A stretch of 64,000 nucleotides of DNA. Origin: Methanomassiliicoccaceae archaeon (lineage in GTDB: Archaea > Thermoplasmatota > Thermoplasmata > Methanomassiliicoccales > Methanomethylophilaceae). Position numbers and translations under genes: made by a program. Below the pieces are notes generated by a model. That model was not told the origin of the DNA, searched no databases, and saw nothing but the letters and a program-made list of their open reading frames with translations. The stretch is taken from positions 1 to 64,000 of the forward strand of contig JAEEOP010000032.1 in NCBI GenBank assembly GCA_016284295.1. The letters are read 5' to 3'. Positions within the stretch are counted from its first letter, which is position 1. Each line of letters starts with the position of its first letter. Below, in pieces: positions 171 through 43,494 of the stretch.

Positions 171-484
171 AGTGTCTGGCCACAGCGGTTGTTCTCGTCT
201 CCGCATCCAAGTTGACCACTTCGCGCCTCCACCCTGCTACCCCGTAAACGTCGGTGGTTCGAAGTGAGGCTGCTCCCGTCAGGACCTGACCCGGTTTCCC
301 CGATTAATACAGGATGAACGACCCTCCGACCGTCCTCTCTGTAAACTCCGACTCTACAGGACAAGATTTCATAGTTGCTAGATGGGCTTGTATGCATCAA
401 CGGGACCGCCCGCTGCTGTCACCCCCGCGTATTGACGATTTCGGGTGTAGGGCACGCCAAGCGCCCCGGTCAAGCCAAACAAGG
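171..484 (-). ncRNA. ffs: Signal recognition particle RNA (archaeal 7S RNA)
   Basis: The minus strand carries the helix 8 signature GGGTCAGGTCC-TGAC-GGGAGCAGCC (around positions 268-293). It also has an archaeal Alu domain (TTGGCGTGCCCTACACCCG, near 440-465). The termini pair as helix 1: TGTTTGGCT at the 5' end (about 474-482) is complementary, with G-U pairs, to GGCCAGACA at the 3' end (about 173-181). The length of about 314 nt fits archaeal SRP RNA. It binds SRP19 and SRP54 and targets nascent membrane proteins. The helix 8 apical loop is TGAC rather than the usual GNAR loop. The ends are placed by pairing and are accurate to a few bases. Confidence 0.9.
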
Positions 485-13353: not shown

Positions 13354-14286
13354 ATGGCCTACAGCGTCGAGATCATCGGGTCGGACCGCGCGGAGGAGCT
13401 CCTCTCGCTCCACGGGGGATCCAACTACTACAGGCAGAAAGCGGACATCAACGGCATCTGCATCGAGCTTTTCACGGAGAACAAGGACTTCAGCGACATG
13501 TGGTCCGACAACTTCTACCATATGTCCGACCACGTCCGCTCCCATGGGAGGATCTACTGCATCAACGACGGGTCCGGGCTCCATGCGGAATACGACATGT
13601 CCACGTACACCATGTTCCTGTTCGATTTCGACTACTACGGATGGATCAAGAGCGTCGGGCTGGGGATGGCGGGCAACATCCTTGAGAGGGGCCATTACGT
13701 CTACTCAGTTCACGGCGCGGCGATCGATGTGGACGGCAAGGGGGTGACTCTGATAGCACCCTCCAAGACCGGAAAGACCACACAGTCATGGGGACTCCTC
13801 AGGCTGGAGAACTCCCATCTCATCTCTGACGACTGGTATTTCGTCCAGTTCGGAAACGGAAGGCCCAGGATCACCGGTTCCGAGAGGAACTGCTACATCG
13901 ACGCTGATATCGGAGACGTGTGGGAGGAGTACAAGCCCCTGGTGACCGGCGTCAAATTCGACAACAAGGGCAGAGGAATAGGCAACGTCAGATGGGTGAG
14001 GGGCGACGGTGCCGTCATCCCCAAGACGTCCATGAGCACGGTCATCCTGCTGAAGAGGGATCCCGAGGATCCTGAGCTCTGCAGGGAGATGGCGGTTGAT
14101 GATGCCCTGTCCTATCTGGAATCGCACGATTTCTGCAACCCGCATCAGCTGATCCGCGACGAAGCCAGCATCGCTCTGCGCAGGGAGTTCTTTAGAAGAT
14201 ACCTGTCCGAGTGCAAGGTGTACATGGTCAACACCACATCGCCCGCCAGGGAGACGCAGGAAAGGATCCGCTCCCTCATCGGATGA
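13354..14286 (+). CDS. HPr kinase-like P-loop protein
   Basis: A 310-residue protein. The central motif VTLIAPSKTGKTTQSWGL (about residues 134-151) is a Walker A loop, and LISDDWYFVQ shortly after resembles the D-D strand of HprK/PEPCK-type kinases. The N-terminal 100 residues are unlike bacterial HprK. The likely activity is phosphoryl transfer to a small molecule or protein, but the substrate is unknown; archaea generally lack HPr. Its end overlaps the end of sfsA on the other strand by 11 bases. A T-rich TATA-like element lies about 28 bases before the ATG. Confidence 0.65.
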   Translation: MAYSVEIIGSDRAEELLSLHGGSNYYRQKADINGICIELFTENKDFSDMWSDNFYHMSDHVRSHGRIYCINDGSGLHAEYDMSTYTMFLFDFDYYGWIKSVGLGMAGNILERGHYVYSVHGAAIDVDGKGVTLIAPSKTGKTTQSWGLLRLENSHLISDDWYFVQFGNGRPRITGSERNCYIDADIGDVWEEYKPLVTGVKFDNKGRGIGNVRWVRGDGAVIPKTSMSTVILLKRDPEDPELCREMAVDDALSYLESHDFCNPHQLIRDEASIALRREFFRRYLSECKVYMVNTTSPARETQERIRSLIG

Positions 14287-14983
14287 TCCTCAGACGGCAC
14301 TCCACCGGGGAGCCCACCGTCATGGAATCGGGTGTCACCACGCAGTCGTAGGCGAGGACGCACACCCCATCCTCAAGCACACGGGACAGGGCCTCCCCGA
14401 AAGCGGGATCCGTGGCGTAGTTCGGAACGAAATAGGATACTGGCCTCATCTGTATGATCAGTACGACCTACGATTCGTAACCTTCATCCAAAGCATCCCT
14501 CAGGCCAAGGAGATGCTTGAGTCCCCTTTCCGTTGGGGCGTCCGGGAAGGAGCACACGCCGTCGTTCTCCAATGTCACGCCCTTCACCTCGGCGAAGACC
14601 TTCCTGTCGCCGTCCTCGATGTAGAAGTCGAAGCGGGAGTCGCCATGGACGGTCTCGGGGAAGATGCGGGGGTCCTTGAAGAGGCCGGATATCGGTATAA
14701 ATTCCTTGAAAGCGGCATTGGGGGCCTGGGAATCGATGTTGATGAGCACATCTCCCTTGTAAACTGCGATAAGATCGTAGCGGGTCTTTCTGGATGGGTT
14801 GTCGGAATCATACAGGATGCATCTGGCGCCCGGGACGAGGATCTCCTTGCATCTCCCGGTGTTCTTGACGTGACATCTTACTACAGGGTCTGGCACATCC
14901 CCTTCGCCTTTGATCCGGACGTTGGCGATGAACCTGTTGGGCCTGTCTATGAATGTCCCTTGAATCACACGGTCGTACTTCAT
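14276..14983 (-). CDS. sfsA: SfsA family protein with an in-frame UAG (probable pyrrolysine)
   Basis: The N-terminal part reads YDRVIQGTFIDRPNRFIANV, then HVKNTGRCKEILVPGARC, KVFAEVKGVTLE and FPDAPTERGLKHL, all SfsA landmarks (OB-like domain plus nuclease-like fold). TAG occurs at codon 172 (14470-14468), after DEGYES. The same frame continues for 63 sense codons (VVLIIQM...YFVPNYATDPAFGEAL...GVCVLAYDC) to TGA at 14278-14276. This tail is the expected SfsA C-terminus, and with it the protein reaches the usual length of about 235 residues. UAG is probably read through as pyrrolysine. ATG 14983 is chosen over 14989 because of a GGTGG about 7 bases upstream. SfsA binds nucleic acid; its role is unclear. 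Confidence 0.85.
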
Positions 14984-15047
14984 TTCCATCCACCGATTCG
15001 TTCCGAATCGGAGAGTCGTTGCAGGGATTTTCTTCGTTGAAAAACCC

Positions 15048-15463
15048 TTGACGCTAACATCGGTAAGCATCAAGGTAATGGAGTTTGGGGGTATAATTAG
15101 TTTAACAGTTCGAGGGGTCATCCAAAAAGGGCATCATCCACCGAGTTCGTCGCGGTCTTCAACAGCGATAAGTCTGGTGATAGTCGAATTGATTGTCGCT
15201 TTATGTTCGTTCTTCATTCTTCCTGATACGATTGCAAGGCACTGGGGTGTCGGCGGGACCAGTTATGGCAGTCGATATACGTATTCGGTGCGCCTGTCCT
15301 CGCGGGGATTGTCACCGCAGCGGCCAGCATGTTTTCGAGATGGTACGAGAAGCGTGATCCTGTTGAAGGGGAGACGCTGTATTACGTGATGCTCTTCGTG
15401 TCCTTCATGATGATTTTTGTCGGATTCTTTGGAATATCCCTGATACTTGCGACTAATTTTTGA
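15048..15463 (+). pseudogene. Frameshifted DUF1648-like membrane protein
   Basis: One frame encodes a helix followed by ILPDTIARHWGVGG, the PxxIPxHW-type motif of DUF1648/SdpI-like proteins, and is intact to about 15285. The homologous continuation (VFGAPVLAGIVTAAASMF ... MIFVGFFGISLILATNF, then TGA at 15461-15463) lies in the next frame, starting at about 15284. So one frameshift near 15283-15290 breaks a gene of about 125 codons. The start is uncertain. The remaining DNA to 15691 shows no convincing gene. Confidence 0.55.
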
Positions 15464-15991: not shown

Positions 15992-17179
15992 TCACCTTTC
16001 CAGCAGCCAATCCAGAAGGTTTACGTGGAACAGCCCGTCAGGAAGATCAGTCACGAACGTGTCCATTGACAGTACTGTCTTAGGGTAGTTATCGCGTATC
16101 AGACGGAACGGCGATATCTCGCGATCGTATGTATCCTCGGCAAGCATGGACAGTGTCACTTGGAAGTACTGTATCTCATTCCCCCTGCGGGCGGTAAAGT
16201 CCACTTCCTTATCGCCGTATTTCCCCACGACGACCTCATAACCCCTCCTGATGAGTTCCAGATAGACGATATTCTCAATCTGCCTGCTGATGTCCTCCCT
16301 TGACGATATTCCCAGGACTGCGTTCCTCATGCCTGTGTCCGAAACGTAGTACTTCTCCAGTGTGTCCAGAAGCTTCTTCCCACGGATATCGTACCGTTCC
16401 GCCTTGTGGATGAGAAAGGCCTTCTGCAGAGCATTGAGATAGTTTCTCACCTTCTCCGGATCTTTCTTTATGGTGACGGCTATGTTGTTTGCACTGGTTA
16501 TGTTTCCGATGTTCGAATAAAGGAATCTTGTTATATCGGTCAGCGTCGCTATGTCCCCGCCTTTGCAGTTCCTGATCACGTCCTTCATCATGATGGTGTT
16601 GAACAGTCCAACAAGGTGATCGTGTTCGAACATCTCGTCCGCATCCGGATCTATTACCGGGAGGGAACCGCTGCGTATGTATTGGTAGAAACGTTCGTTC
16701 CTGTCCCCGGGATGGAGTTCGAGGAATTCACCGAACGATAACGGGAGCATCAGCAGTTCGGTGTAACGGCCCGAGATGTACGTTGAGAGATCGCTTGAAA
16801 GGAGATAGGCGTTGGAACCTGTGATGTAGATGTCCGCATCGTAATCCGTCTGAAGGGAATTGACGGCACGCTCCCAATGCTCCACAGCCTGCACTTCATC
16901 GAGGAACACATAGGTCCTTTTCCCGGTATAGCGCCTGTCGATCTCTTCAAGCAGTTTCATGTAATCCGTTACATGGGCAAGGGTCTTCGATTCGAAGTTG
17001 AGATGGATGATCCTATCATCCGGTACTCCCGATTCCCTGAGAGCGGAGATGTACTGTTTCATCAGCACGGTCTTCCCGCTGCGCCTCATACCCGTTATGA
17101 TCTTCACTGTGTCCGGGCGGTCCCTGCCGGAAAGGAGCCTGTCGAGGTAGACTTTTCTTATCACTTCTTCCATGGACAT
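15992..17179 (-). CDS. AAA_14/DUF4143 family ATPase
   Basis: A 395-residue protein of the common prokaryotic AAA_14 + DUF4143 type. Walker A is GMRRSGKTVLMKQ (about residues 29-41), Walker B is YVFLDEVQ followed by WERAVNSL, and the ITGSNAYLLSS sensor strand is present. The C-terminal DUF4143 part includes RKLLDTLEKYYVSDTGMRNAVLG and the nuclease-like EVDFTARRGNEIQYFQV. The role of this family is unknown; many are thought to act in DNA handling or toxin-antitoxin-like functions. A TATA-like TTTAATAAATT about 20 bases upstream suggests a leaderless start; ATG 17173 is an alternative. Confidence 0.85.
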   Translation of the reverse strand: MSMEEVIRKVYLDRLLSGRDRPDTVKIITGMRRSGKTVLMKQYISALRESGVPDDRIIHLNFESKTLAHVTDYMKLLEEIDRRYTGKRTYVFLDEVQAVEHWERAVNSLQTDYDADIYITGSNAYLLSSDLSTYISGRYTELLMLPLSFGEFLELHPGDRNERFYQYIRSGSLPVIDPDADEMFEHDHLVGLFNTIMMKDVIRNCKGGDIATLTDITRFLYSNIGNITSANNIAVTIKKDPEKVRNYLNALQKAFLIHKAERYDIRGKKLLDTLEKYYVSDTGMRNAVLGISSREDISRQIENIVYLELIRRGYEVVVGKYGDKEVDFTARRGNEIQYFQVTLSMLAEDTYDREISPFRLIRDNYPKTVLSMDTFVTDLPDGLFHVNLLDWLLER

Positions 17180-17275: not shown

Positions 17276-17546
17276 CCCGATGACGACAGACTGACACTGC
17301 AGGAGTTTTCCTGCCCGATGAATTCCTCCGCCTTCCTCACCTGTTCCTCCAAGGGCAGCATCCCATCCACCCATAGGACTGGAATGTCCATGCACCACCT
17401 GCGGAACGTCCTCGATCTCAGGAATTCGTGGGTGCGGCCGGTGTCTTGACGTGACGCTTATGGACTACTCCGTCGATCTCCACCATGGCGATGAACCTGT
17501 TCGGCCTGCTGATGAATGTCCCCGTCGTCACTTTCTCGTATCTCAT
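17276..17546 (-). pseudogene. Chimeric remnant: SfsA N-terminus joined to an unrelated tail
   Basis: From 17546 the minus strand reads MRYEKVTTGTFISRPNRFIA...VVHKRHVK, clearly the first 35 residues of an SfsA protein, but the frame ends at 17418. After a one-base slip at HVK(N)TGR the other frame continues THEFLRSRTFRRWC...VDGMLPLEEQVRKAEEF and stops at 17278-17276. That tail is not SfsA; its R/F/R-W and VDG...EEQV pattern resembles the end of some P-loop kinases, which is speculative. This looks like a recombination scar after which the gene decayed. Confidence 0.6.
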
Positions 17547-40599: not shown

Positions 40600-43494
40600 T
40601 CAATCGGATTCGGCCTTGTCCTCCAGATATCTGCGCACCCTGTCCTCGATATCATCCAGCGGGACGGGCTCAATCCTCTTGCTCTCCTTCATCGAGACGT
40701 AGTCTATGTAGCACTCCGCGTCGCAGCCGAAGTTCTCGCATGCCGCATACTAGTAGACGGACAGCTGGACCCTGTACTCGTCCTCGAACTGATGGGAGAT
40801 GTCGGTCTTCCAGTCGTGTATCTCCACATGATCCTCATAGACGGCTATCATGTCGATGATGCCGTGCAGGGTAGCTTCGGTGTTCTCCAGCGGGAGCCAG
40901 CAGTCTATCTCGGCATAGATGTGGTTCGCATCCGAGATGGAATCCAGGACCTTGCGGATCTCAGGGATCTCCTCGTAGACGTCTTCGACCTCGCGGCCGT
41001 AGCACATGGTCTGGGCGATGCTATGGATCTTTTTCCCGTACTCCATTCCTTTGCCGGATACCTCGTCGGACCCATCAGGTATGGATGATCCGTCGCCGGA
41101 ATCGAAGTCGAGTATCTCATGCACGCCTATCTTCGTGCGCCTCCTCCTGTACGGAGGGATCTCCGGGCTCGGGATGCGATCCTTCTCATTGTCATCGGCC
41201 TCGTATCCCACATCGGGGATGTCCGTGAACGAATCGGCCAGCCCCTCCATGAACGCGGAGGGCTGGTCACCGCAGATGACCGTCTCGTACTGCTTCGCCC
41301 TGGAAAGGGCCACGAACATCAGACGCCTCTCTTCGCTGTAATCGGTCTTCAGAGTGCCCAGGGCCAGGCTGGTCCTCCAATCAGGGCACATCTTGGAGTA
41401 GTCGCCGAACCTACCGACGACGCTCCTGCAGCGGACCCCCAGCGTCCTGTCGAAGAGGAACACGTCCCCGTCGCCCCTGACCCAAGGCATGGAGCCCTTG
41501 TCTATGAAAGGACATATGACGGTGGGGTACTCCAGTCCTTTGGACTTGTGCATGGTCATTATGGTAACGGCCTCGTCGTCGATGAAGTTCTCCACGGGGT
41601 ATGTGGCCTCGTTCTCTATGTCGTCCTCTATCAGCGTGATGACGTCCGAGATAGTCAGCAACGATCCTCTGTGCATCGAAGATATGGTCGATATGATCGC
41701 CTGCGTGATGTCGTTGTCCAGTCCGTAGAAGCGGAACATCTTCGTCAGGAGGTCTGTGACCCTGCGCTTCTTCCTGAATAGGAACTCCCTCTGGTCGCGG
41801 AGCAAGGCAGGGACATGGGTCGGGTCCTCCGCCGCATCCAGCACCTGCATGGGGTTGTACTGCATGTCCACCATGATCGGCATGTACCCCCAGCGGTCCT
41901 CCGAGTTGTTCACATATCTGAGCCAGGCCAGGGCCAGCTTGCCCTCGCGGGTGGACATGATCTCGACCTCTCCCTGGAGATATGCAGGAATACCTTCCTT
42001 CTTGCAGGCATCCTTTATCAGCCTGCACTGGGCGGTCTTGCGGCAGAATACCGCTATGTCCCCGAAGCCCAGCAGACGGGATTCTCCGTTCCTGACGACA
42101 TGGTACCTCCCTGACCTTACGTAGTCCTTGATGGCGGCCACCGTGGCGGCGACCTCCCCCTCACTAGAGTCGGCCTGCACGAACCTGACCTCGGAATCGT
42201 CATCGTTCAGATCGCTCCTGCCCTGGTTCAGTAGGACCACGTTCTCCTTCACCTCCTCCTATCTGGGGTTGTCATCCTTGGATCCGTTGAGGCACATGGC
42301 CCTGAAGGCGGTGTCGATCACCTTGCGTGACGAACGGTAGTTGATGTTCAGACGCGGAGTGTCCACCTCGGGTATGCTGTACCCTATGCGCTTGATGTCA
42401 TCGTTGAGGAAGCGCCTGTATTCGACGAGCTTCCGTTCGAAATCGGTGATGTTCTCGATGGAGACGTGCCTGAAACCATAGATCCCCTGCTTCCAGTCAC
42501 CGAGCACGGCCAGATTGGGCTCCTTGAGGATCATCATCGCGATCATCATCTGGTTGGCGTTGGTGTCCTGGAATTCGTCTATCATGACATACCTGAACGA
42601 GTTCCTCTCCCTGACGGAGGGCTTGCTGTAGAGGACGACGAAGGCCAGCATGGCGTTCAGTCCGAACGTGAGGCGGTTGTCCCTGATGCTGGTACGGATG
42701 TACTCGTAGTAGACGTCATGGATGAAATCGAAGAGGCCCTGCCTGTCTGGCGACGCCGCCTCCAGGAGCACCTCGTCGGGGAAGCTGCCGTCCAGATCAG
42801 GTTCCGGGAAATCGTAACGATCTGTCTTGATATCGTTCAGTCTCGATACGTTAGGGGACGCACCCCTGGACCTTGGGATGTTCCTTTCTTTCAGCTGCTC
42901 GAGGACCGCTTCGCAGTCGCCTTCCAACATCCTCTTCCAGTCGTTCCCGAACCATCCTTTCCTCAGAGGTATCAGCCCTTTGGACATCAGGTTCTGGATT
43001 AGCTTCATAATGGTCAGGGGCCTCTCGCTGGCGATGACGGCGTAATCGCCGTAGTCCGAACCCTTCCTCAGGAGGAAGCCGTCCATGAAGCGGATGAAGT
43101 AGTTCCTGTTCATGGCCCCGTTCTGGCTGAGGACAGCGGATCTCGTGAGTGATTCGTCGAATCTGAAGAACTCCCCTATCATATCGGGAGAGTCCAGGAC
43201 GATGGACAGGCAGAAGGCGTCGAACGTCATCGTGCGCACGAGCTTGGAATCCCTCTCCATGCCCTTCTCGACCATCTTGTTCCTGATGCGCTCGTCCATC
43301 TCAGCGGCGGCGTTGTTCGTGAATGTGAGGAGCATGATGTCGCTGGGCGACACGTTGCGCTCGGTAAGGATGTTCATGTAACGGGCGACGATCGTGTGCG
43401 TCTTTCCGGTACCCGGGCCGGCATCGACTACCATCATGCCGTCCAGGGTGTCGGCTATGTGCTGCTGGATCTCGTTGAGCTCACTCATCGTCAT
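40600..43494 (-). CDS. AddA-like UvrD helicase-nuclease with two in-frame UAG codons
   Basis: One frame runs from 43494 to TGA 40602-40600 (964 codons before the stop), interrupted only by TAG at codon 412 (42261-42259) and codon 915 (40752-40750). Before the first: DAGPGTGKTHTI (motif I), VMIDEFQDTNANQ (II), LGDWKQGIYGFR (III) and NYRSSRKVID (IV). After it: TIMTMHKSKGLEYPTVI (V), RLMFVALSRAKQ (VI) and the nuclease motif EIHDWKTD. After the second: 49 residues ending RRYLEDKAESD. Neither half makes a complete SF1 helicase, so UAG is probably decoded, most likely as pyrrolysine. Residue 915 sits at the usual QLSVY-x-YA position. It overlaps the AddB-like gene by 14 bases. The start could be 43488. 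Confidence 0.88.

Follow-up and report, generated by a model that had tools for sequence, protein, structure and literature searches.

UAG codon 172 of a predicted sfsA nuclease gene as a probable pyrrolysine codon in a Methanomassiliicoccales archaeon

Here, we report that UAG codon 172 of sfsA, a gene predicted to encode the DNA/RNA nuclease SfsA, is best explained as a sense codon for pyrrolysine, the uncommon 22nd amino acid; we hold this reading to be very probable on sequence evidence. The gene lies in the window, i.e., the whole stretch of 64,000 nucleotides that was analysed (bases 1-64000 of contig 34 in a 45-contig draft genome of 1,857,069 bases, from a methanogenic archaeon of gut type). 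The original prediction had already proposed UAG decoding here. Four findings now support it: the genome holds all of pylTSBCD as one cluster, a sister species carries TAG at the identical codon, the stretch 3' of the TAG is under purifying selection, and TAG is almost never a final stop in the 36% of the genome that was sampled; taken together, these make UAG most likely a pyrrolysine codon. We infer the identity of the residue at 172 (pyrrolysine itself and not another one), as well as the efficiency of read-through and the neutrality of the change.

The sfsA gene and its in-frame TAG

14276..14983, minus strand: sfsA, predicted DNA/RNA nuclease SfsA, 235 residues with TAG as sense (TIGR00230, Pfam, fold)
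14468..14470, minus strand: in-frame TAG, codon 172, proposed pyrrolysine codon (translation; TAG in the same column in ISO4-G1)
14279..14467, minus strand: 63 codons 3' of the TAG, coding for the final strands and helix of the nuclease domain (Pfam SfsA, dN/dS, model)
14276-14278, minus strand: final stop TGA of sfsA (translation)

The earlier description of the gene gave no strand; sfsA is on the minus strand and starts at 14983. Translation bears out its TAG at codon 172 (14470-14468), followed by 63 sense codons up to the TGA. Please note that the codon number depends on the chosen start; counted from an ATG that lies two codons further upstream, it becomes 174. The expected read-through length of about 235 residues is also right: the product has 235 amino acids and matches TIGR00230 over its full length (E 3.8e-48, 163.9 bits, curated cut-off 126.45), and both Pfam domains, SfsA_N and SfsA, match it (family PF03749 and PF17746). 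There is no frameshift in the gene and no in-frame TAA or TGA before its end. The parts before and after the TAG, in one frame, each match the SfsA domain separately, and the 63 post-TAG residues, which had been claimed to be the normal SfsA C-terminus, by themselves cover profile positions 91-137 of 138 (E 1.3e-9). A chance open frame after the TAG is ruled out by this homology. Open length alone would not suffice, as 75 of 334 coding-like ORFs ending in TAA or TGA in the 36% genome sample stay open for 63 codons or more past the stop, and 20 of the 334 combine this with an equal coding score.

The predicted structure of SfsA has a mean pLDDT of 78.2, and its best fold matches are 4dap (TM 0.83) and 4dav (TM 0.81), i.e., the solved structures of SfsA from E. 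coli and Pyrococcus. From residue 170 on, the model contains strand 170-177, helix 193-204 and strands 208-217 and 220-226, with residue 172 placed within the first of these strands. If UAG terminated translation, perhaps with rare read-through, a functional product of 171 residues would remain. This product would retain the OB domain and D119/E132/K134, which we take to be the catalytic motif of SfsA's nuclease superfamily, and it scores 127.1 bits against the cut-off of 126.45; according to the model, however, it would lack four elements of the nuclease domain that follow residue 170, namely three strands and a helix. Together with the alignment and selection results below, this makes a functional truncated product very unlikely.

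Pyrrolysine machinery and TAG usage in the genome

The complete pyl cluster is on contig 36 of the window's genome (stretch L062), in the order pylT, pylS, pylB, pylC, pylD. pylT (L062 2996-3066) was called as tRNA-Pyl with anticodon CTA, and PylS, PylB, PylC and PylD all score above the curated cut-offs (TIGR02367, TIGR03910, TIGR03909 and TIGR03911, respectively). PylS is of the short form: its 273 residues align to the C-terminal portion of the long PylS model and to no other part of it. Adjoining the cluster is mtmB with an in-frame TAG, our positive control; it was matched by Pfam (PF05369, 692 bits) and gave no match in NCBIfam. Another suppressor tRNA could in principle read UAG and insert an ordinary residue, and the tRNA scan covered 36% of the genome; however, across the window, L062 and another 40 stretches, tRNA-Pyl was the only CUA tRNA, and all of the pyrrolysine biosynthesis genes are present, so we regard such a suppressor as extremely unlikely. 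A PYLIS-like structure 3' of the sfsA TAG was sought, and no unusual stability was found there (z +1.07 in the window and -0.97 in the ISO4-G1 locus, L023). According to a review, UAG decoding does without such an element and involves competition with the release factor (PMC9499178).

TAG usage was evaluated in 670,819 of the 1,857,069 bases (36%), on ORFs that had 100 codons or more and scored above 0.1 per codon for coding; extensions that run off a stretch were dropped. The 345 coding-like ORFs end in TGA (306), TAA (28) or TAG (11). A coding-like continuation follows 9 of the 11 TAG-ended ORFs, two of which are supplied by one helicase, versus 24 of the 334 ending in TAA or TGA (Fisher p 1e-8). 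In ISO4-G1 the corresponding counts are 6/6 and 13/217, and in G117, a genome without PylS, 1/19 and 23/194, i.e., the effect is absent. The nine read-on TAGs are those of CobN, the helicase (two), a Na/Pi cotransporter, a Cys/Met PLP enzyme, MatE, MtmB, SfsA and one protein without a Pfam match. Also TAG-ended are a pterin-binding enzyme and a GNAT enzyme. The TAG of the former is at residue 237 and is probably read through as well, because the Pfam domain (14-250) extends past it; the latter has a TGA two codons past its TAG.

The helicase is the other UAG case that had been claimed for the window, and it is real:

40603..43494, minus strand: UvrD-type helicase/PD-(D/E)XK nuclease, 964 aa, in-frame TAG at 42259-42261 and 40750-40752

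Its PD-(D/E)XK nuclease domain is C-terminal to the helicase. Among the best matches in the seven genomes of the genus that were searched, three (G073, G077 and G078) have one TAG each and four have none. For CobN across 31 genomes of the genus, a hand count found TAG inside 6 of the 124 matches listed, and TAA or TGA inside none. One of the six belongs to G085 (82% complete), a genome with no PylS over the cut-off; this counts mildly against a strict link between TAG and PylS, or else the gene is missing from an incomplete genome. Contigs 3, 38 and 42 of the window's genome carry about seven CobN/Mg-chelatase-like genes (eight CobN matches, two of them probably one gene), which seems many for an archaeon of 1.9 Mb.

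Relatives, origin of the TAG and selection

An order-wide search gave an SfsA match in 70 of 147 genomes, and the resulting alignment holds 67 sfsA sequences, the window's included. An additional scan by genome name gave mostly bacteria; these loci were left out of the sfsA alignment and counts and were used solely in the DNA comparison, apart from L102, which also entered further comparisons of the sfsA 5' region. As had been claimed, other SfsA proteins carry an ordinary residue at the TAG; this holds for 65 of the 67, the exceptions being the window and ISO4-G1 (G073; TAG at the same codon, L023:1999-2001). The column contains Tyr in 40 sequences (TAC 26, TAT 14, each one base from TAG), Cys in nine, Ser in five, Trp in four, Val in three, TAG in two, and Met, Phe, Ile and Thr in one each. 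That so many relatives have no stop here also speaks against a functional 171-residue product. A sequencing or assembly error at the TAG would be conceivable in a 45-contig draft; however, ISO4-G1 was sequenced independently and has the TAG at the same codon in a genome finished by 454, MiSeq and Sanger gap closure (PMC4824259), which leaves an error next to no chance.

In the sfsA tree, the window and ISO4-G1 sequences are sisters (support 0.999) and their nearest neighbours carry Tyr; one gain therefore explains both TAGs, and the pattern fits a single TAY-to-TAG change in the common ancestor of the two species. Please note that four of the 67 rows (the incomplete genes L094, L096, L097 and L098) were omitted from the tree, and that the first 56 columns were dropped because this region may come from an element. 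A genome of another genus, G041, has an in-gene TAG elsewhere in its sfsA (L079:2078-2746, alignment column 100), with both SfsA domains matching around it; judged by the alignment, this is a separate, independent gain. G031 was rejected as a further case, since the codon counted there sits just ahead of the start Met. Across the order, the premature stops in full-length sfsA matches are TAG only, and the one TGA, in G072, is in a short sfsA fragment.

The comparison with genomes lacking pyl genes found an in-gene sfsA TAG in none of the 15 PylS-negative rows, a class that may include genomes missing the gene through incompleteness, and in three of 51 PylS-positive rows; the single row with partial PylS only has none, and 3/51 versus 0/16 is on its own not significant. 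All three TAG-bearing genomes (the window's, ISO4-G1 and G041) have PylS.

Between the window and ISO4-G1, dS is 1.63 before the TAG and 1.37 after it, with dN/dS of 0.10 and 0.26 and identities of 79% and 60%, respectively. The post-TAG pN/pS is 0.45 (bootstrap 95% 0.29-0.67; 0 of 2000 replicates at or above 1), and the segment is thus under purifying selection, like that of TAG-free relatives. The ratio of dN after to dN before the site is 2.22 in the window/ISO4-G1 pair and has a median of 1.71 in 175 TAG-free pairs, 20% of which reach at least 2.22; the median dN/dS of the 3' part in these pairs is 0.32. TAG-free pairs are also faster in the 3' part, and therefore there is no extra relaxation in the window/ISO4-G1 pair. 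For this comparison, rows L094, L096, L097 and L098 were dropped and only pairs whose pre-TAG part has dS 0.8-2.2 and dN 0.05-0.35 were used; the pairs share branches, so that the statistics are descriptive. That TAG-free pairs show no clearly stronger selection on the 3' part argues, again, against a product ending at residue 171.

The same data bear on a pseudogene, i.e., a nonsense mutation that truncated sfsA and left the remainder decaying. The TAG comes ahead of the gene's final quarter, conservation is lower 3' of it, and sfsA is not universal in the order, as the 70 of 147 genomes indicate. Decay is, however, hard to reconcile with a TAG common to ISO4-G1 at dS above 1.3, with a post-TAG frame that is open and under purifying selection, with a gene that has neither frameshift nor TAA/TGA, and with premature stops that are exclusively TAG across the order; we consider a pseudogene very improbable.

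Several observations concern the 5' end of sfsA and its neighbours. The first ~36 codons together with ~180 bp upstream (14875-15162, minus strand) resemble G027 and G034, which belong to other genera, and G089; this 5' region is unlike that of the sister ISO4-G1, whose DNA match ends at 14875. Upstream of sfsA, 15162-15118 (minus strand) retains the 3' end (LKTATNSVDDALFG-stop) of the gene for a tyrosine recombinase, which is intact just upstream of sfsA in G034 (L095:324-1880, PF00589, E 1.8e-11). Another sfsA start, this one frameshifted, is found at 17433-17546 (minus strand), 2.5 kb upstream of the gene, and between it and sfsA is an AAA_14/DUF4143 ATPase (15992-17179, minus strand); a different ATPase of similar look, judged by eye, is upstream of sfsA in G040 (L101:2392-3636). 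The arrangement suggests an integrative element that integrates close to the HVKNTGR codons of sfsA and makes the gene whole again with a 5' end that it brings along, and the 5' end of the window's sfsA looks element-derived. Short sfsA pieces occur apart from the intact gene in G034 (L099, C1:734899-735039, N-terminal, 57 kb upstream), G037 (L100, C1:1059056-1059208, C-terminal, about 20 kb downstream) and G040 (L101, N-terminal), and these are possibly att remnants. Elsewhere in the window, an archaeal SRP RNA was found at 173-481 (minus strand, 177.9 bits).

Proposed decoding and known systems

In the mechanism that we propose, PylBCD would make pyrrolysine, PylS would charge it onto tRNA-Pyl (pylT, anticodon CUA), and the charged tRNA would outcompete the release factor at UAG 172 to give the 235-residue SfsA. 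The TAG would have arisen from TAT or TAC by one base change in the ancestor of the window species and ISO4-G1. The affected position is variable and sits where a late strand of the nuclease domain begins. The TAG would have been kept as UAG hardly ever terminates translation in the lineage, and the Tyr-to-TAG change would therefore be nearly neutral. A near-neutral replacement of Tyr by pyrrolysine is more likely than a chemical role, because residue 172 is variable in the family and is presumably not among the catalytic residues of SfsA.

With the genome sample, sfsA supports UAG as a general sense codon in the genus. We lean toward the broader view that UAG has there all but lost its stop function and become a regular pyrrolysine codon proteome-wide, tying the cell to the pyl cassette by the code and not by the regulation of a single gene. 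If this is true, the cell could complete even such unrelated enzymes as SfsA, the CobN-type chelatase, the PLP enzyme and the DNA helicase only as long as it has pyrrolysine. The pyrrolysine-dependent genes would gain a nuclease that has no relation to methylamine metabolism, with a site that is common to two species and selection-tested. Gene calling is affected, because the standard code makes genes of this kind appear truncated, and the case bears on how a codon ceases to signal stop.

A code in which every TAG means pyrrolysine, i.e., genome-wide sense use of TAG, has reportedly been described in archaea. Pyrrolysine is also said to have entered a tRNA-His guanylyltransferase 'by neutral evolution'; there too a gene outside the methyltransferases acquired a TAG without any obvious requirement for pyrrolysine, although the family and the lineage are other ones. 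Our literature search, in which most subscription journals lay outside, found no paper joining pyrrolysine with sfsA. Within the order, the accessible text on 'Ca. Methanomethylophilus alvus' gives TAG as the stop in 1.6% of genes only and, as in the window, in-frame TAG in non-methyltransferase genes (16 other genes, Cas1, MtxX, Fic and others); SfsA is absent from its Table 7 (PMC4153887). In ISO4-H5, an in-frame amber codon is present in 46 genes, including adenylate kinase, an isomerase and Cas3, with SfsA not named in the accessible part of the report (PMC5011839). ISO4-G1, the very genome with the same sfsA TAG, was reported to have 25 pyrrolysine-containing genes, nine of them methyltransferases, in a text without a gene list (PMC4824259); its sfsA may be among the other 16, counted but unnamed. 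In-frame TAG in non-methyltransferase genes of the order is thus already published, and sfsA is an added example.
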